A DNA stretch of 23,839 nt from a virus: positions 1-23,839 of the IMG/VR virus record IMGVR_UViG_3300009431_000138, one strand, 5' to 3'. How positions within the stretch are numbered: the stretch's first letter is position 1; each line of letters begins with the position of its first letter. The position numbers and the translations under genes are program-made. Below the pieces are notes generated by a model. That model had not been told where the DNA came from. It saw only the letters and a list, made by a program, of their open reading frames with translations, and searched no databases. Shown one piece after another: positions 7,465-23,802 of this stretch.

Positions 7465-7971
7465 ATGGCGCAAGTGACGATCTGGGTGCCCATCCAAGAG
7501 CGGGCCGATGCCGAGCAGGGAATCATCCGCCGACCCGACGTCCCGGAGGCCATCCCGTTTACGACCCGCGAGGGCATTCCCGCCGATTTCGTGACCGAGA
7601 CGCGGCCCACGCCCCTGGCGATCACCCACGCCCAGATCGTCGTCGACGAGAGGGACGTGGACAAATGCCCCAAGCGCGTCCAGGAGCGCGACGTCGCCGA
7701 GCGGGATCGCCTCCTCGTGCGCATGCTGCAGGAGTGCGGCGGAGACTATGAGCGGAAGGCCGACGCCTTCTTCGACAGCGTCCCGGATATCGCGACGGGC
7801 ACGGAGACGCGCAAGCGCATGGCCGCCCGGCTTCTGCTGCAGGCCGTGGCCCGGGGTCTGAGGCCGGCCAAGGCGGTCGCCATCTCCGAACGCCACAACT
7901 TCAAGGATGTCGACCCCGGCGAGCGACCGAGATCGGCGCCGGGAGGGGGCGCCCGTGGCCCGACTCGCTGA
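7465..7971 (+). CDS. Conserved-looking phage protein of unknown function
   Basis: This 168-residue soluble protein has no recognised domain. The first half is beta-rich (MAQVTIWVPIQERADAEQ). The middle part is highly charged, with a cluster of Asp/Arg (VVDERDVDKCPKRVQERDV), and is followed by helices ending in RLLLQAVARGLRPAKAVA. The C-terminus is basic and Gly/Pro/Arg-rich. It lies between the tail tip protein and the glycosyltransferase and overlaps the latter by 17 bases (with GTG 7955) or 65 bases (with ATG 7907). It may be a tail-associated chaperone or accessory protein; nothing firmer can be said. Confidence 0.6.
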   Translation: MAQVTIWVPIQERADAEQGIIRRPDVPEAIPFTTREGIPADFVTETRPTPLAITHAQIVVDERDVDKCPKRVQERDVAERDRLLVRMLQECGGDYERKADAFFDSVPDIATGTETRKRMAARLLLQAVARGLRPAKAVAISERHNFKDVDPGERPRSAPGGGARGPTR

Positions 7972-10303
7972 TCAGATCCGGACGCTCAGCGCCAGGAGGA
8001 CCAAGGAGGAATGTCTCGACTGCCAGCTGGCCGCCGCCGGCCTGGTCCCCATGTCGATCGTGATCAATTCCCACAATGAAGGACTGCGCCTGAAGGCCAC
8101 CGTCGAGGCCTTGCGGCGGAACGTGCGCGGTCAAGACTTCGAGCTGATCGTCATCGACGACGGCTCCACCGACAAGAGCGCCGAGGACCTCGGCGAAGAC
8201 ATCTGCATCGTGCGCAATGCCCAGCGCATCGGGTGCGGCCTGTGCAAGGGACAGGGGGTGGAGGCCGGCCAGGGCTCGGTCTTCGGCTTCTTTGATGCCC
8301 ACTGCAACGTGGTCGATGGCCGGCTGGCGGATCTCGCCGTCCTGGCCGCCCGGGAACGCGCGATCATCTGCCCGATCGTCCGCAATGTCCAATTCGACGA
8401 GGACTGGAACTTCCGCCCGCCGAGCGCCACCTACCTCTGGCCCAGCGGCAATGGCCTCCGGCGCGAGAAGCAGCAATATCAGGCCGTGGCCAAGGTCTCC
8501 ACGAAACCGCACCGCCTCGTCGAGGTCGACATGATCACCGTCGGCTGCTTCATGTCCCGCGAGACCCTCGAGGCCCTGGGCGGCTGGAACAACTACGAGG
8601 GCCTCCACGGCTCCCAGGAGCGTGGCATGGCCCTCCGCGCCTTCATGGCCAAGATCCCGATCAAGGTCTTCACCGGCGTGCAGGTCGGCCATCAGTTCCG
8701 CAAGGGCAAGTGGCCCTATAAGCCCCCGCCCCGCAAGCACCAGCTCCGCAACCTGTGGCATGCCTTCGGCGTGGTGGCCTCGCCCGAGACCTTCGAGGCG
8801 CACTTCCGCAAATACCTCACCCGCGGCAATGGCGGACTCGGCCGGCACGTCCTCGGCACCAAGGCCTTCAAGCGCGATCGCGACCACTTCCAGGCCCACT
8901 GCAAGAAACGCTCCGACCGGGAGCTCCTCGAGAAGCTCGACCTCGTCGACTCCCCAAGCCCGAATCCCAAGCCCCGAGCCCGAAGCTCCATCCCTCTGGC
9001 CCCGCATCCCAAACCCCAGGCCCCGAATCCCCAGTTGCCCGGCATCGACGTCCGCATCTGCTACGAGCCCGGAGGCCGGCTCGGCTTCGCCTACAACCGC
9101 GCGATCCGGAATTCCTGGGCCGACTGGGTCCTCCTCCTCGACCACGACGTCCTGCTCCTGAATCCGAACTGGTATGAGATCTGCCAGCGCGTGATCAAGG
9201 AGCACCCGCGCGCCGGCATGTTCACCTGCTGGACCAATAACATCGGCTGCAAGAAGCAGAAGCTCAAGGAGGCCCCGCGCGGCCACGATCTGAAGAAGCA
9301 CCGCGAGAAAGCCCGCGAGATCTGGGAGCGATTCGGCCTGCAGACCACGCAACTTCGCCGCCAGCTCATCGGCGGCTTTCTCATGCTCGTGCGCAAGTCG
9401 GCCTGGAAGAAGATCGGCGGCTTCGTCGAGACCGGCTTCTTCGGCGTCGACAATGACTTCCACCACTGCCTCCACAAGGCGGGCCTCGAGGTCTGGCGGA
9501 TGGACGGGCTTTATTGCTACCACCTCCGCGAGCGGAAAGACCGAACCTGGCTGAAGGGGACTTGCCTCGCCTCGGCGCACGAGCTCAAGCGCACCCCCGA
9601 GGAGCTGCGTCGATCCACCCTAACCCCCAACCCCCAACACCCAAGCCCTCGAGTCGTCTACACGGTCGTCACCGGCAGATATGATCGCCTCCCCAAGGTG
9701 CCGGCCTTCCCCGGCTGGGACTATGTCGCCTTCGTCGCCGAGGACTCGCTCGAGTTCGCCGGCGAGCGGGAGCCCTGGCAGATCCGCACGCTCGATACGC
9801 GCGGGCTCGATCCCATCCGGGCGAGCCGCCTGCCAAAGATCCTGCCGCAGTTCTATTTGCCGCAGTATGAATACTCGCTCTATTGTGATGCGAACCAGCG
9901 GCTCCGGCAAGATCCGACGCGGATGGGCGAGAAAGCCCGCTGGCCCGACTGGATCATGAGCCGGCATCCGAATCGGTCCTGCGTCTATGAGGAGGCCAAG
10001 AGCTGCGTCAGGATGAGTAAGGCCAGCATCATGGCGGTCGAGACGCAGATCCAGCGCTATCGCGACGCCGGCATGCCGGAGAATCTCGGCCTCACGGCGA
10101 ACGGGATCATGCTCCGGCGGCACAAGGCGCCGGCGGTCATCGAGTTCGCGAAGCGATGGTGGGAAGAATACGCGGCGGCCGAGACCTCGAGGGATCAGCT
10201 CGCGCTGCCGTTTGTGCTTTGGAAACACGGCTTCGAGATCCGGACCTTCTCCGTTACCGAGAGAAACCGCTTCTTCCGCAGGAAGAACCATGCACGAGGA
10301 TAG
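7955..10303 (+). CDS. Three-domain glycosyltransferase (GT27/GT2-like, GT2-like, TOD1/MUCI70-like DUF616)
   Basis: The start is GTG 7955 with GGGAGG at 7941-7946; ATG 7907 would overlap the previous gene by 65 bases. The product is 782 residues. Domain 1 (about 34-320) is GT-A: SIVINSHNEG, DDGS at 68-71, a DAH metal motif at 114-116, and GHQFRKGKWPY at 245-255. The DAH plus GHxFR...PY combination recalls polypeptide GalNAc-transferases (GT27). Domain 2 (about 364-540) is another GT2-like unit with LLLDHDVLLLNPNW and GGFLMLVRKSAWKKIGGF. Domain 3 (about 566-782) has the DUF616 pattern: VYTVVTGRYD, YSLYCDANQRL, RHPNRSCVYEEA, GLTANGIMLRRH, SRDQLALPFVLW. Two Pro-rich linkers separate the domains. 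There is no signal peptide, so it should act in the cytoplasm, perhaps on virion proteins. Confidence 0.85.
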   Translation: MARLADQIRTLSARRTKEECLDCQLAAAGLVPMSIVINSHNEGLRLKATVEALRRNVRGQDFELIVIDDGSTDKSAEDLGEDICIVRNAQRIGCGLCKGQGVEAGQGSVFGFFDAHCNVVDGRLADLAVLAARERAIICPIVRNVQFDEDWNFRPPSATYLWPSGNGLRREKQQYQAVAKVSTKPHRLVEVDMITVGCFMSRETLEALGGWNNYEGLHGSQERGMALRAFMAKIPIKVFTGVQVGHQFRKGKWPYKPPPRKHQLRNLWHAFGVVASPETFEAHFRKYLTRGNGGLGRHVLGTKAFKRDRDHFQAHCKKRSDRELLEKLDLVDSPSPNPKPRARSSIPLAPHPKPQAPNPQLPGIDVRICYEPGGRLGFAYNRAIRNSWADWVLLLDHDVLLLNPNWYEICQRVIKEHPRAGMFTCWTNNIGCKKQKLKEAPRGHDLKKHREKAREIWERFGLQTTQLRRQLIGGFLMLVRKSAWKKIGGFVETGFFGVDNDFHHCLHKAGLEVWRMDGLYCYHLRERKDRTWLKGTCLASAHELKRTPEELRRSTLTPNPQHPSPRVVYTVVTGRYDRLPKVPAFPGWDYVAFVAEDSLEFAGEREPWQIRTLDTRGLDPIRASRLPKILPQFYLPQYEYSLYCDANQRLRQDPTRMGEKARWPDWIMSRHPNRSCVYEEAKSCVRMSKASIMAVETQIQRYRDAGMPENLGLTANGIMLRRHKAPAVIEFAKRWWEEYAAAETSRDQLALPFVLWKHGFEIRTFSVTERNRFFRRKNHARG
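8951..9040 (+). repeat. C-rich low-complexity repeat encoding first inter-domain linker
   Basis: Degenerate units of the kind CCCAAGCCCCGAATCCC run through the segment and encode a linker rich in Pro, Asn, Lys and Ala between glycosyltransferase domains 1 and 2. The composition differs sharply from the flanking coding sequence. Confidence 0.7.
9614..9652 (+). repeat. C-rich low-complexity repeat encoding second inter-domain linker
   Basis: A short run of CCCTAACCCCCAACCCCCAA-like units encodes TLTPNPQHPSPR between domains 2 and 3 of the glycosyltransferase. It resembles the first linker repeat in composition and unit length. Confidence 0.6.
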
Positions 10304-10808
10304 TCTAAAAGAGATGAGCCGGATCGTCCAGGACGAATTGAAGCCCGCGCACGCGCGGGCCCTCCGCGTCCTCGACGTGGGCAGCCGCTGCGTCAATACC
10401 GACTTTCCTCATACATACCGCGAGCTCATGCCCCCGTCCTGGACTTATCTCGGCGCCGACTTGGAGCCCGGCCTGAATGTCGACCTGGTCATGGCGGGCC
10501 CGTATAGTCTCCCCGCCCGCTCCGGCCGCTTCGATCTCATCATCTCCGGCCAGGTCCTCAAGCACGTCAAGAATCCGTTTCGGCTGCTCGCCGAGATGGC
10601 CCGCGCCCTCAATCCCGGGGGGACGATCGTCCTCGCGGCGCCCTGGCGCCACGACAAGGTCCATGACCATCCGGTCGATTGCTGGCGGATCCTCCCCGCG
10701 GGGATGCGCGCGCTGCTCGAGGAGGCCGCCCTGAAGCCACGCGCCGTCTATATGGTCAAGAACGACACCTGGGCGATTGCCGACAAGAACGGAGATCCGG
10801 AGCGATGA
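10290..10808 (+). CDS. Class I SAM-dependent methyltransferase
   Basis: This 172-residue protein has a class I methyltransferase pattern of the methyltransferase-11 type: motif I region VLDVGSRC at 28-34, an acidic residue after strand 2 (LGADLEP at 54-60), FDLIISGQVLKHV at 81-93, the helix AEMARALNPGG at 101-111 and the strand TIVLAAPW. A His/Asp-rich loop (RHDKVHDHPVDCW) may contribute to substrate binding. The ATG has AGGAAG at 10280-10285 and overlaps the glycosyltransferase end by 14 bases, and its own stop overlaps the next ATG. Co-translation with the glycosyltransferase suggests that it methylates a sugar or another product of that pathway. The substrate is unknown. Confidence 0.8.
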   Translation: MHEDSLKEMSRIVQDELKPAHARALRVLDVGSRCVNTDFPHTYRELMPPSWTYLGADLEPGLNVDLVMAGPYSLPARSGRFDLIISGQVLKHVKNPFRLLAEMARALNPGGTIVLAAPWRHDKVHDHPVDCWRILPAGMRALLEEAALKPRAVYMVKNDTWAIADKNGDPER

Positions 10809-11464
10809 CCTCGATCCCCGACGAGCAGGTCCTCTCGCAGGCGACGCTGTACGGCGTCTGCCGTGCCGAGGGCGTGCGCTCCTCCAAGAGCTTCGGCTGC
10901 GGCGTGCTCCTGCCGAGCCTCCTCTGGTGCTGGGATGCCTCGGCCGTCATCGAGATCGGCACCTATGAGGGATTCAGCAGCCTGGCGATCGGGATGCAGC
11001 TCCAGCTCATGGGCCCGACCGGGACAGGCGCCCGTCGGCGCCTGGCGGTCTGCGATATCGAGGATGAATGCGTGGCCGAGTCACTCCGCCTCCTCGAGGA
11101 ATATGCGCCCGACGTCGACGCCGAAGGAATCGTCTTTGACAGCGCTGCCGTCGACTGGCGGAGCTGGGGCCAGTTCGATTTCGCCTATATCGACGGCGAC
11201 CACTCCGGGCCGGCCATGGCGGCGGATCTCCGCCAGGTCGTGCCGGCCATGGATCCCGACAAGGCCGCGATCCTCATGCACGATTATTGCCCGCGCTATC
11301 CCGGCCTGGTGGCCGCCATCCAGGAGTTCATTCACTCCTCGCCCGAGTGGAGCATGGCCGCCTTGCCCTCGAAGCTCTCATACCCCATGGCGCTCGCAAC
11401 GCGCTCCGCGCCCGCCGGCCTGGAAGTCGGCAAGGAAGGCCGCATGCGCGTCGCCGGAGTTTAG
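10805..11464 (+). CDS. Class I SAM-dependent methyltransferase (TylF / methyltransferase-24-like)
   Basis: This 219-residue protein shows motif I as VIEIGTYEGFSSLAIG, an acidic strand-2 end (VCDIEDE), and FAYIDGDHSGPAMAADL followed by ILMHDY. The last two are typical of the methyltransferase-24 / TylF and cephalosporin-hydroxylase-like group, whose members often methylate sugar hydroxyls with a divalent metal bound near the Asp/His residues. It overlaps the first methyltransferase by ATGA. The pair, together with the glycosyltransferase, forms a compact modification cassette inside the late operon. There is no signal peptide. Confidence 0.8.
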   Translation: MTSIPDEQVLSQATLYGVCRAEGVRSSKSFGCGVLLPSLLWCWDASAVIEIGTYEGFSSLAIGMQLQLMGPTGTGARRRLAVCDIEDECVAESLRLLEEYAPDVDAEGIVFDSAAVDWRSWGQFDFAYIDGDHSGPAMAADLRQVVPAMDPDKAAILMHDYCPRYPGLVAAIQEFIHSSPEWSMAALPSKLSYPMALATRSAPAGLEVGKEGRMRVAGV

Positions 11465-12895: not shown

Positions 12896-12943
12896 ATGGT
12901 GGACGCGAAGAGGACCAGGACCAGCATCATCAGCCATACTTAG
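12896..12943 (+). other. Very short ORF behind a strong ribosome binding site
   Basis: GAGGAGGAAC at 12885-12894 is an unusually strong Shine-Dalgarno site placed just before ATG 12896, but the frame closes after 15 codons (MVDAKRTRTSIISHT). The last part overlaps the 3' end of the opposite-strand integrase. It may be a remnant of a gene truncated when the integrase module joined the genome, or a genuine micropeptide. Confidence 0.3.
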
Positions 12944-14381
12944 CCACGGTGCGAACCATGGGCCAGAGCCAAAGCTCAAGGTCATCATCGGTTATGGTGA
13001 TGCGGCGGATGATGGTGTGAAGCCACTGCCGCTGCTCCTCTGAGTCGCCGAGCTGCAAATGCTCGGCGACCTTTTTAACGAAGGCGGCTGGATCGATCTC
13101 CTCGTCCTCGCGCTTCTCCATGGCCTCGAGCTCGTCGGCCAGGGCGTCGACGCGCATCGCCGCCTTCTCCCGCACGGCGGTCCACCGCTCGAGCTCGTCA
13201 TTCCATGAGGCCTGATTCCCCCCGCTGATGTGCCCCTCGGTGGCGAGCTGCATGAGGTTGCCGTGCCTGCGCTCGGCCTGGTGGAAATCGCGCCGGGCGA
13301 TGGCGAGCTGCTCCGTGAGCGCGGCGATCCCCTCCTCCTGGCGCTGGGCCGCATCCTGGGTGGCGGATTTCAGAAGCAAGCTATTTCCGGCCAGGGCACA
13401 GAGCTCCTTGATGATGAGGTCCTCGATCTTCTCAGCATTGATCGGTTTCTGCGGACACTCCAGTCCGCGATCCTTGGTGGTGCAGCGATAGTAGAAATAC
13501 CGCCGGCCGCGCCCGCTGCCGGCGGAGCAGCTCATGTGCCTGCCGCATTGGCCGCAGCGGATCAATCCGTCCAGGCGGTAGAGGTATTTTCGTTTGGCGA
13601 TGTTCCGATCGATCGGACCGTTGCTCCGGGAGGCAAGCCGTTTCTGCGCGGCGTCGAAGGTGGCGGCGTCGACGATCGGGTCATGGGTCGACTGATAGGT
13701 TTTGCGCTGCCAGATGATCTTGCCGCGGTAGACCGGGTTGCGGAGCACATAGAGGACGCCCTGCTTGCCGATGCGGTGGCCGCGCGAGGCGATCTCCCGC
13801 GCGATCGCCGGCGAGGCGTGGCCCTCAAGATAGAGGCGGAAGATCTCGCGCACGACGGATGCCTTGTCCGGATCGAGCACGAGCTGCTTCTCCTCGACGC
13901 GGTAGCCCAGGGGGATCCCCCCGCCGCCCCACTTCCCCTTCTTGGCGGCCGCGAGCATGGTCTCGCGCACGCGCTCGGCCGTCATCTCGCGTTCGAACTG
14001 GGCGAACTCGAGGAGCATGCCGCGCATGAGCCGGCCGGCCGGGGTCGAGGTGTCGACATCCTGGGTGACGGCGACCACGGCGACCTCGAACTCCTCGAGC
14101 TGGGCGAGGAAGGAGTAGAAATCCCGGGCGGTGCGTGAGAGACGATCGACCTTGAGCGCGGCGATCGCCTGGAACCGGCCCTTGACCATGTCGCGAAGCA
14201 TCTCCTGGAAGGCGGGCCGCTTCATGTCCTTGGCGGAATAGCCGTCGTCGCAGTAGACCTCGACGACCTGGGCGCCCTTGCCCTGGGCCCAGGCACGGCA
14301 CCGCGCTTCCTGGAACTCGAGCGACATGCCGGAGCGCGCCTGCTCGATCGTCGACACGCGGGTATAGATCGCGACGTTCAT
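12930..14381 (-). CDS. int: Large serine recombinase / integrase
   Basis: This 483-residue large serine integrase catalyses attP x attB recombination. The N-terminal resolvase domain shows the catalytic Ser10 in AIYTRVST and the arginines of KVDRLSR (80, 83). A recombinase domain follows (about 155-260; GIPLGYRVEEKQ, LRNPVYRGKIIW). A zinc ribbon lies at about 273-310 with Cys276, 279, 285, 300 and 309, then a coiled-coil region (about 325-430) and a C-terminal tail. Length is typical of the family (450-550). The start codon directly follows the stop of the secreted-protein gene (TGAATG), and no good separate ribosome site is seen, so it is probably translated by coupling within the leftward lysogeny operon. 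Confidence 0.95.
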   Translation of the reverse strand: MNVAIYTRVSTIEQARSGMSLEFQEARCRAWAQGKGAQVVEVYCDDGYSAKDMKRPAFQEMLRDMVKGRFQAIAALKVDRLSRTARDFYSFLAQLEEFEVAVVAVTQDVDTSTPAGRLMRGMLLEFAQFEREMTAERVRETMLAAAKKGKWGGGGIPLGYRVEEKQLVLDPDKASVVREIFRLYLEGHASPAIAREIASRGHRIGKQGVLYVLRNPVYRGKIIWQRKTYQSTHDPIVDAATFDAAQKRLASRSNGPIDRNIAKRKYLYRLDGLIRCGQCGRHMSCSAGSGRGRRYFYYRCTTKDRGLECPQKPINAEKIEDLIIKELCALAGNSLLLKSATQDAAQRQEEGIAALTEQLAIARRDFHQAERRHGNLMQLATEGHISGGNQASWNDELERWTAVREKAAMRVDALADELEAMEKREDEEIDPAAFVKKVAEHLQLGDSEEQRQWLHTIIRRITITDDDLELWLWPMVRTVAKYG

Positions 14382-15425: not shown

Positions 15426-16055
15426 TCATACCCACGTGCCCTTGATCTTGTAGATGTGGCGGACCTCCGATCGCTTGAGGGTGATCGGCCGATACTTGGG
15501 GTCCTGGTTCACGGACTGGCACTGGACCTTGCGCCAGTCCTCCTTGCGGTCGAAGTAGACGCGCTTGAAGAGGACCTCGCCATTCTTCTTCTCGATCACG
15601 GCCAGGCCGCCGTCCTCGGGATCCTCGCGGAGGACGAAGACCTGCTGCCCGTCCAGGGCGGTGGGGCTCATGCTGTCGCCGGAGACGAGCACCATGTGGA
15701 CATTCGCCGGGAACCGGAAGAGGCGGTCATAGCGCTCGACCCCGTCGCTCACGGCATGGACCCGGCCATTGGCCGCGCTGGCCGTGGCCAGGACGGGGAT
15801 CCCCTCGGCCTGGGCGCGAACCTCCGGGACCATGGGCCCCTCCCCGGAGATCAGCCAGGCTGGGCTGCAGCCTAGCCCGCGGCAGATCTTGTCGATCCGG
15901 TCGGCCTGGGGAATGCTCTCCCGCCGGACCATGCTATCGAGATCGTGATAGCTGATGCCCACCTTTGTGGCCGCTTCCTGCATCCCGCCCGACTCCTCGA
16001 CCAACTGACGCAACCTGCCCGAAAATTTTCTTGCAAAGATAACGTTTTTGGCCAT
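15426..16055 (-). CDS. CI-like repressor with S24 (LexA-type) peptidase domain
   Basis: This 209-residue protein has an N-terminal HTH (about 10-65; EAATKVGISYHDLDSMVRRE) and a C-terminal S24 domain with Ser128 in SGDSMSPT and Lys164 in VLFKRVYF, the catalytic pair of LexA/CI self-cleavage. The usual Ala-Gly or Cys-Gly cleavage dipeptide is absent between the domains, where SAANGRVHA may be the scissile region. No ribosome site is visible before the ATG, so it could be translated from a leaderless message as lambda cI is from PRM. It is divergent from the early operon and heads the leftward operon with the secreted protein and integrase. Confidence 0.92.
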   Translation of the reverse strand: MAKNVIFARKFSGRLRQLVEESGGMQEAATKVGISYHDLDSMVRRESIPQADRIDKICRGLGCSPAWLISGEGPMVPEVRAQAEGIPVLATASAANGRVHAVSDGVERYDRLFRFPANVHMVLVSGDSMSPTALDGQQVFVLREDPEDGGLAVIEKKNGEVLFKRVYFDRKEDWRKVQCQSVNQDPKYRPITLKRSEVRHIYKIKGTWV

Positions 16056-16099
16056 CGGCTTTTACCCGCCGGCTGATAACCGCTCGCCTAATTTTGGAC

Positions 16100-16128
16100 T
16101 TGACAGGTCAGGCAGGCGACTATATGAT
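16100..16128 (+). promoter_or_regulatory. Rightward early promoter (PR-like), near-consensus sigma-70
   Basis: TTGACA at 16100-16105 and TATGAT at 16123-16128 are separated by 17 bp: a perfect -35 and one mismatch in the -10. The start would be near 16135. It lies between the divergent repressor and the early operon and points to the early genes, as lambda PR does. Confidence 0.8.
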
Positions 16129-16131
16129 CGC
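16101..16131. promoter_or_regulatory. Operator-like dyads overlapping the early promoter
   Basis: TGACAGGTCA (16101-16110) is TGAC-N2-GTCA and overlaps the -35. GCGA-N2-ATAT-N2-TCGC (16116-16131) is a 16-bp imperfect dyad overlapping the -10. The two are spaced so that they would sit on adjacent turns. They are plausible repressor sites, but short dyads occur by chance and no third copy was found. Confidence 0.45.
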
Positions 16132-16134
16132 CCG

Positions 16135-16441
16135 TGACAACTGGACCGCCGGAGGCAATCATGAGACCAAGACCAGAAACGAGCGCGCCAGGGCAATCCC
16201 TCACGGGACCTACCACACGGCTCCGGTCGGATTCAGTTGTCAGCTTTGGCGCGCTCTTCTCTTCACGCTGCCTGCAGCATACTCCAGGGCATAGGTCGAG
16301 TCAAGGATTACTTGGGGCGGGCATCCAAGATGTGAAGGTCCTCCTGACGGGCCCGTCCAAGCGGAAAAGGCATGTCCACGGCAGTGGACTTGCGTCCAAG
16401 CCCATGTTCGCTGGGCTGGAACCTTTTTTCGGAGAAGAATC
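16135..16441 (+). promoter_or_regulatory. Leader of the early operon ending in an intrinsic terminator (about 300 nt)
   Basis: From the predicted start near 16135 to the first clear early gene at 16442 no recognised protein is found. The leader contains a perfect palindrome GACGGGCCCGTC (16346-16357), a direct repeat CGTCCAAGC (16354 and 16393), and three mutually exclusive hairpins near its end, including a terminator. A 98-codon ORF with a good ribosome site runs through it but does not look like a known protein. It may be a transcription attenuator, an antitermination target, or the source of a roughly 295-nt noncoding RNA. Confidence 0.5.
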
Positions 16442-16457
16442 ATGGATAAGTGGCTGA
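16161..16457 (+). CDS. Leader ORF of uncertain coding status
   Basis: Ninety-eight codons follow the site GGAGG at 16151-16155 with a 5-base spacer, just downstream of the strong promoter. The protein (beginning MRPRPETSAPGQSLTGP) matches no family I recognise, and its third codon positions are much less GC-rich than those of the neighbouring genes. It runs through the terminator and overlaps the next gene by 16 bases. A ribosome on this ORF would cover the terminator hairpin, so even if the protein is unimportant its translation could control read-through. Confidence 0.3.
   Translation: MRPRPETSAPGQSLTGPTTRLRSDSVVSFGALFSSRCLQHTPGHRSSQGLLGAGIQDVKVLLTGPSKRKRHVHGSGLASKPMFAGLEPFFGEESWISG
16395..16429 (+). 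terminator. Intrinsic terminator / attenuator before the early operon
   Basis: The arms TCC-A-AGCCCA (16395-16404) and TGGGCTGGA (16412-16420) form a 9-bp stem with one bulged A and a 7-base loop, followed three bases later by T6 (16424-16429). It lies only 12 bases before the start of the first early gene, an unusual place for a simple terminator. Confidence 0.7.
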
Positions 16458-16798
16458 TCGCCCGGATCGTGCGCGCGGCCGTGGCCTCGATCCGCCGCCA
16501 CCGGGAGCTGCAGGTCGAGGCGGTAAAGGACAAGATGGCGAGGATCGCCAAGGAGCTCGATGTCGGCCGCTCCTCACTTTACAACTGGGGCAAGGTCCAG
16601 AGCGACCAGGTCCCGGACGTGATCCAGATCATGCGGCTGCTCTGGCTGGCCTCGCCCGAGGTGCGGGCCGAGGCGATCACCGCACTGAGTAAGCAGCTCG
16701 GCATCTACGCCGAGATCAAGATCGAGGGCGCCGTATCGAAGAACCTCACCCAGGAGATCGACTGGGATGCGCACCAGTGCGATGAGGAGGCGGCATGA
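16442..16798 (+). CDS. Small HTH transcriptional regulator (Cro- or CII-position)
   Basis: This 118-residue protein has a helix-turn-helix in KMARIAKELDVGRSSLYNW (about residues 29-49), followed by an acidic helical C-terminus. The ribosome site GGAG at 16431-16434 lies directly after the terminator. As the first gene of the operon expressed from the PR-like promoter, it occupies the place of Cro or CII in lambdoid phages. The sequence is not clearly either one, and the HTH with the following Ser-Ser-Leu-Tyr-Asn-Trp recognition helix is also common in small phage regulators. Its stop overlaps the next start. Confidence 0.7.
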   Translation: MDKWLIARIVRAAVASIRRHRELQVEAVKDKMARIAKELDVGRSSLYNWGKVQSDQVPDVIQIMRLLWLASPEVRAEAITALSKQLGIYAEIKIEGAVSKNLTQEIDWDAHQCDEEAA

Positions 16799-23435: not shown

Positions 23436-23473
23436 AGCCCTCGACCCTAGTACTAGGGGGTCGAGGGCTTTTT
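23436..23473 (+). terminator. Strong intrinsic terminator at the end of the early operon
   Basis: The arms AGCCCTCGACCC (23436-23447) and GGGTCGAGGGCT (23458-23469) pair over 12 bp. Inside the loop the palindrome CTAGTACTAG extends the stem, with two unpaired G on one side. The T tract 23469-23473 follows at once. It closes the early operon before the HNH gene. Confidence 0.9.
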
Positions 23474-23490: not shown

Positions 23491-23802
23491 ATGCCACAGA
23501 GAGCAGCCTCACACCGGGCACGAATGCGGGGGACGCTGCCGCGCATTCCAGAGGACCGACCGAGTGCGGCAAAGCGCGGCTATGGCCGGCGCTGGCAAAA
23601 GCTGAGAGCGATGCAACTGCGGCGCGAACCGCTGTGCCGGACATGCAAGGGAATGGGCGAGGTGGTCGTCGCGACGGAGGTCGACCACGTGGTGGCCAAG
23701 GCGCGCGGGGGGATCAACTCGCTCGGCAACCTGCAGAGCCTGTGCCACATGCACCACTCCCAGAAGACGGCACGCGACGACGGAGGGCTCGGGCATGGGT
23801 AG
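23491..23802 (+). CDS. HNH endonuclease of the packaging region
   Basis: This 103-residue protein has a Cys pair (CRTC, 49 and 52), the HNH core VDHVVAKARGGINSLGNLQ (Asp65, His66, Asn80) and a second zinc half (CHMHH). Phage HNH proteins beside terminase genes, such as HK97 gp74, are known to assist terminase cutting at cos. The start at 23491 has no clear ribosome site; ATG 23524 is an alternative. Its place at the start of the packaging block is typical. Confidence 0.85.
   Translation: MPQRAASHRARMRGTLPRIPEDRPSAAKRGYGRRWQKLRAMQLRREPLCRTCKGMGEVVVATEVDHVVAKARGGINSLGNLQSLCHMHHSQKTARDDGGLGHG

Follow-up and report, generated by a model that had tools for sequence, protein, structure and literature searches.

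How does a temperate phage set its repressor gene against its early genes when a long stretch with no recognisable gene lies between the two? The question arises from a 23,839-bp virus record, analysed here at its full length (the window), which belongs to a temperate phage with tail genes, a serine integrase, a CI-like repressor and rightward early genes. An earlier note on this DNA had described the stretch as the leader of the early transcript and had seen in it an RNA attenuator that might act as the decision switch.

The intergenic region between the repressor and the early genes

The gap at 16056-16441 is, with 386 bp, the longest between called genes of the window, and the repressor gene and the early genes point away from each other across it. 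The features of this region, together with the integrase, are as follows.

12930-14381, minus strand: serine integrase gene
15426-16055, minus strand: CI-like repressor gene, 209 aa, with an S24 peptidase domain and a Cro/C1-type HTH (Pfam and phrog matches)
16100-16128, plus strand: candidate rightward early promoter PR, TTGACA-17-TATGAT, predicted start near 16135
16135-16441, plus strand: leader of the early transcript, classed as untranslated
16276-16304, minus strand: leftward promoter match TTGACT-17-TATGCT, facing PR, predicted start near 16269, towards the repressor gene
16442-16798, plus strand: first early gene, 118 aa, an orphan with a possible HTH (IAKELDVGRSSLYNW)

The repressor is recognised by Pfam PF00717 (E 1.3e-9) and by the transcriptional repressor family phrog_4 (E 5.8e-29). 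On the other side, the rightward genes from 16442 include replisome-organiser and RusA genes, as well as one that we take, from our own reading of its sequence, to be ERF-like. The leader thus has the repressor to its left and the early genes to its right, which supports its placement in front of an early operon, in a decision region. The first early gene has a strong codon signal (third-position GC 0.90) and a weak best family match (phrog_2538, E 4.5e-4); no Pfam family and no PDB sequence matched it, and a structure model of the 118-aa protein was discarded as useless (pLDDT 41). Elsewhere in the window, a large glycosyltransferase-like gene and two methyltransferase-like genes, labelled by reading their sequences, lie at 7907-11464 (plus strand) between the tail genes and the integrase side, an unusual cargo for a small phage.

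Searches for relatives that could show covariation of the leader stems gave nothing usable for the repressor in viral and genome collections, for the first early gene in the viral collection or phages, or for the genes at 16795, 17366 and 4858, and the leader DNA found no relative among phages and plasmids. Relatives of the integrase, RusA and ERF-like genes were found, yet they do not carry this control region and so supplied no homologue of the leader. In Rfam 15, no family reached its gathering score anywhere in the window; the best sub-threshold match, the sRNA BcKCsr2, was rejected: it scored 15.1 bits where 40 are required, and aligned best at the terminal hairpin.

Two promoter matches that face each other

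PR agrees with the consensus at 11 of 12 positions around a 17-nt spacer. Scored with a promoter matrix that served for ranking, and whose consensus may not suit the host and its sigma factor, PR reaches 18.0, the highest value for any promoter-like site on either strand of the window, with 0.01 such sites expected per shuffled window. The near-consensus promoter of the earlier note is therefore present where it was placed, and the leader downstream of it is about 307 nt long, close to the 300 nt of the note. A dyad, GGCGA-N8-TCGCC (16113-16134), flanks the -10 element of PR and may be a repressor operator.

A second site, overlooked at first reading, lies on the opposite strand inside the leader (16304-16276). 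With a score of 14.8 it ranks second in the whole window, and a consensus scan lists it as well; it was equalled on the minus strand in 0.1% of shuffled leaders, and 0.14 such sites are expected per shuffled window. The next-ranked promoter-like site scores 13.2 (12793-12763); within the gap, the leftward site that comes next reaches 6.7. The same scoring gave no leftward site above 5.9 from the repressor start up to PR, and no good divergent PRM-like site is found there. The ranking was unchanged with a uniform background. As a control, the regions above distantly related repressor genes were scored in the same way at nine other phage loci, several of which are related to each other; in 8 of the 9 the top pair consisted of one rightward and one leftward site, placed back-to-back. 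Since these loci give sensible pairs, the scoring method appears sound, and it is the convergent order that sets the present window apart.

These observations fit a lysis-lysogeny control region between the repressor gene and the early genes, built from convergent promoters and ending in a weak 3′ terminator or a structured translation start, a reading to which we give about an even chance. PR would start the early transcript near 16135, with the early genes read rightward and the CI-like repressor leftward, while the opposing promoter would give rise to an RNA that begins at about 16269, crosses PR and enters the repressor gene. With a predicted distance of about 134 bp between their starts, the two promoters, if both fire, would be expected to interfere with each other: an active PR would hold repressor synthesis down, and once PR is shut the leftward promoter would sustain the repressor. 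The distance of some 300 nt to the first early gene may be explained in part by the opposing promoter, which would occupy space in the leader. A promoter that faces PR and reads into the repressor gene is one mark of a convergent-promoter switch, and here it is recognised by sequence match; such a promoter would provide a decision switch that needs no RNA attenuation. Against this explanation, the untranslated 5′ part of a leftward transcript would be 213 nt long, and the ribosome site of the repressor gene is weak.

The open reading frame of the leader

An open reading frame that passes through the whole region had been taken to be translated, as an attenuator would need.

16161-16457, plus strand: leader ORF, 98 aa, extending into the beginning of the next gene; unlikely to encode a protein

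The start signals stand: a good SD, GGAGG (16151-16155), precedes the ATG at 16161, some translation from this ATG is plausible, and the frame runs through all the pairing segments described below. The coding signal does not. GC content by codon position is flat (0.59/0.58/0.57), against a third-position GC of 0.75-0.90 in most genes, codon-position bias is absent from the leader in all six frames, and an open frame of this length arose in 336 of 1000 shuffles. Its codon composition led us to reject the ORF as a probable protein gene.

Attenuators of the trp/his type encode a leader peptide with regulatory codons and have a stop codon between segments 1 and 2. The leader studied here shares with them the order 1:2, 2:3, 3:4 before a T-run, and differs in having neither such a peptide nor such a stop, and in the weakness of its terminator. 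Since the frame contains no codon run and meets no stop before 16457, past the terminator, the classical attenuator layout is absent.

Alternative pairings at the 3′ end of the leader

All secondary structures below are on the plus strand.

16175-16262: long helix, arms 16175-16190 and 16247-16262, 14 of 16 positions paired
16370-16393: hairpin 1:2, GCATGTCCAC/GTGGACTTGC, also a DNA dyad (GTCCAC-GGCA-GTGGAC), -13.6 kcal/mol
16385-16398: alternative hairpin 2:3, -5.3 kcal/mol, prevailing only with segment 1 masked
16395-16429: weak terminator-like hairpin 3:4 with T6 run, -12.0 kcal/mol, or -12.8 kcal/mol with flanks

The four segments and their three pairings were all recovered at the positions first given for them. 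Hairpin 1:2 is a strong one, equalled by 0.5% of the 24-mers of the window, and the free RNA forms 1:2 and 3:4 in the folding model. When segment 1 was masked as if by a ribosome (16355-16384 or 16350-16382) and the transcript ended at 16429, the probability of the outer 3:4 stem fell from 0.74 to below 0.02, and that of 2:3 rose to at least 0.98. The model thus contains one defining trait of an attenuator, pairings 2:3 and 3:4 that exclude each other, with 1:2 restoring 3:4. The exclusion is nevertheless limited to the outer four pairs of 3:4, the inner five to six persisting in the 2:3 state, and with the transcript end at 16422 one of the masks left 3:4 at 0.8. A second register of 2:3 (16385-16392 with 16397-16404) was set aside as transient: with segment 1 masked, its probability reached about 0.5 in transcripts ending at 16407-16410.

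Controls in which both hairpins were kept and their base pairs permuted showed the same switch in 40 of 682 terminator-forming cases (6%), and the 1:2/2:3/3:4 topology before a fixed T6 arose, under relaxed thresholds, in 11 of 600 shuffles (1.8%). According to these models, the pairing switch is modestly above chance. Folding of the leader as a whole has a z of -1.6 to -1.8, and 12% of the other 307-nt windows sampled in the contig reach -1.6. Its best-supported helix is the long one at 16175-16262, with a local folding z of about -2.7; 2 of 100 shuffled leaders contain a repeat of this kind. The arms of this helix and the inverted repeat 16135-16143/16234-16242 cross and could form a pseudoknot; at the DNA level, the latter consists of two inverted 9-bp copies (TGACAACTG).

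The hairpin 3:4 had been called an intrinsic terminator 12 bases before the first early gene. It has that position, and it is followed by the only T6 run of the window (16424-16429). In quality it falls short, with a bulge in the stem and three nucleotides (ACC) between stem and T6; on a d'Aubenton-Carafa-type scale its score d lies between -9 and -31, according to where the stem is taken to end, below the usual cut-off, and the terminator scan of the window did not list it. On the same scale, two comparison hairpins score about +48 to +56 (23436-23469) and +15.6 (13044-13070). The hairpin 3:4 is weakly terminator-like, and the T6, standing before GGAG and the ATG at 16442, may just as well be a U-rich element of the translation start. 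The two adjacent hairpins before the T6 and the start site of the first gene would be a weak, leaky terminator, a structured translation start region, or both, rather than a ribosome-driven attenuator.

The comparison hairpins are of interest in their own right. That at 23436-23469 (plus strand) is a strong intrinsic terminator of 13 bp with a T-rich tail, lying between 23375 and an HNH-like gene at 23491; of the 307-nt windows sampled, the one that contains it folds most strongly (z -4.5). That at 13044-13070 (plus strand) is a good rightward terminator of 10 bp with T5, located within the 3′ end of the leftward integrase gene, and could end transcripts of the structural operon.

Weighing the alternatives

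If a ribosome stalled on the leader ORF, it would cover segment 1, hairpin 2:3 would form, 3:4 would fail and the early genes would be transcribed. The change of pairing on masking at end 16429 and the start signals at 16161 speak for this mechanism, but a moving ribosome would melt all segments, the ORF lacks codon bias, has no run of a single amino acid and does not stop between segments 1 and 2, and the structural case is weakened by the surviving inner stem, the retention of 3:4 at end 16422, the permuted controls that switch equally and the sub-threshold terminator; we regard it as quite doubtful. A terminator relieved by a protein or RNA factor is unlikely, if worth serious thought. Candidates for the factor are a phage antiterminator (N/nut or put type), Nus factors acting at the boxA-like CGCTCTTC (16252-16259), and an antisense RNA; the RNA of about 290 nt released by termination may itself serve as a small RNA, as IsrK of Gifsy-1 does (PMC4825925). 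The order of promoter, boxA-like octamer, small hairpin GCTGCCTGCAGC, terminator-like hairpin and first gene is suggestive, the octamer is one base off the lambda CGCTCTTA, and the leftward transcript would be antisense to 16135-16269. The 7-mer CGCTCTT, however, occurs 6 times in the window against 5.0 expected, the neighbours searched include no recognisable N-like gene, and the Rfam search, BcKCsr2 included, also counts against it.

The repeats may instead matter as DNA. GTCCA occurs at 16355, 16374 and 16394, with spacings of 19 and 20 bp, there is the perfect dyad GTCCAC-N4-GTGGAC, and the window contains just two copies of TGGACTTG, one at 16095 that overlaps the -35 element of PR and one at 16385. 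If GTCCA and TGGAC were half-sites of operators bound by the repressor or by the first early protein, the RNA pairings would be a mere by-product, since repeats of GTCCA and its complement would produce 1:2 and 2:3 by themselves, and the T6 would serve, in front of the SD GGAG of the gene at 16442, as a U-rich enhancer of ribosome binding. These motifs were, however, picked after the fact, and the position of the dyad, about 110 bp upstream of the predicted leftward start and 240 bp downstream of that of PR, is unusual for an operator; we consider this reading improbable. Factor-dependent termination or a small RNA, DNA operators and ribosome attenuation could in some cases coexist with convergent promoters. 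One such combination, in which the leader RNA shared by convergent promoters is a conditional terminator and ribosome traffic or the antisense leftward transcript decides passage of 16429, seems to us very unlikely. Very little probability likewise goes to an ordinary long 5′ untranslated region whose hairpins and leftward promoter match are due to chance in GC-rich sequence. Whole-leader folding is not exceptional, and with no relatives of the region found, no feature is backed by conservation; the rarity of the leftward match, the hairpin topology and the long helix among shuffled sequences argues against it.

Known systems and significance

Convergent promoters have precedents in the decision switches of phages 186 and lambda. 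In phage 186, whose switch has pL and the CII-activated pE convergent with pR, pR and pE are 340 bp apart and interfere; in lambda, PRE faces PR, the cI transcript is antisense to early sequence, and PR interferes with PRE (PMC6593788). The phage studied here resembles 186 in having a lytic promoter faced by one that reads towards the repressor gene. It differs in the shorter, predicted distance between the starts, in its S24 self-cleaving repressor and unrelated genes, and in that no CII activator was recognised. The layout recalls lambda in that a promoter faces PR and its transcript would be antisense to early sequence, whereas PRE lies beyond cro and needs CII, and the leftward site here is near consensus and lies before the first early gene. 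On the RNA side, the leader of IsrK in prophage Gifsy-1 has alternative structures and a terminator, and can give either a short RNA or a longer mRNA (PMC4825925). Compared by description, the two leaders are alike in combining alternative structures with a terminator, here a weak terminator-like hairpin, but no antQ-like gene was recognised here.

The analysis recasts a claim about an RNA switch as a simpler, testable promoter layout, in a phage for which the collections searched hold no close relatives. Should the convergent layout prove real, it would extend the interference switch of the 186/lambda type to a phage that combines an S24-type repressor with a serine integrase.
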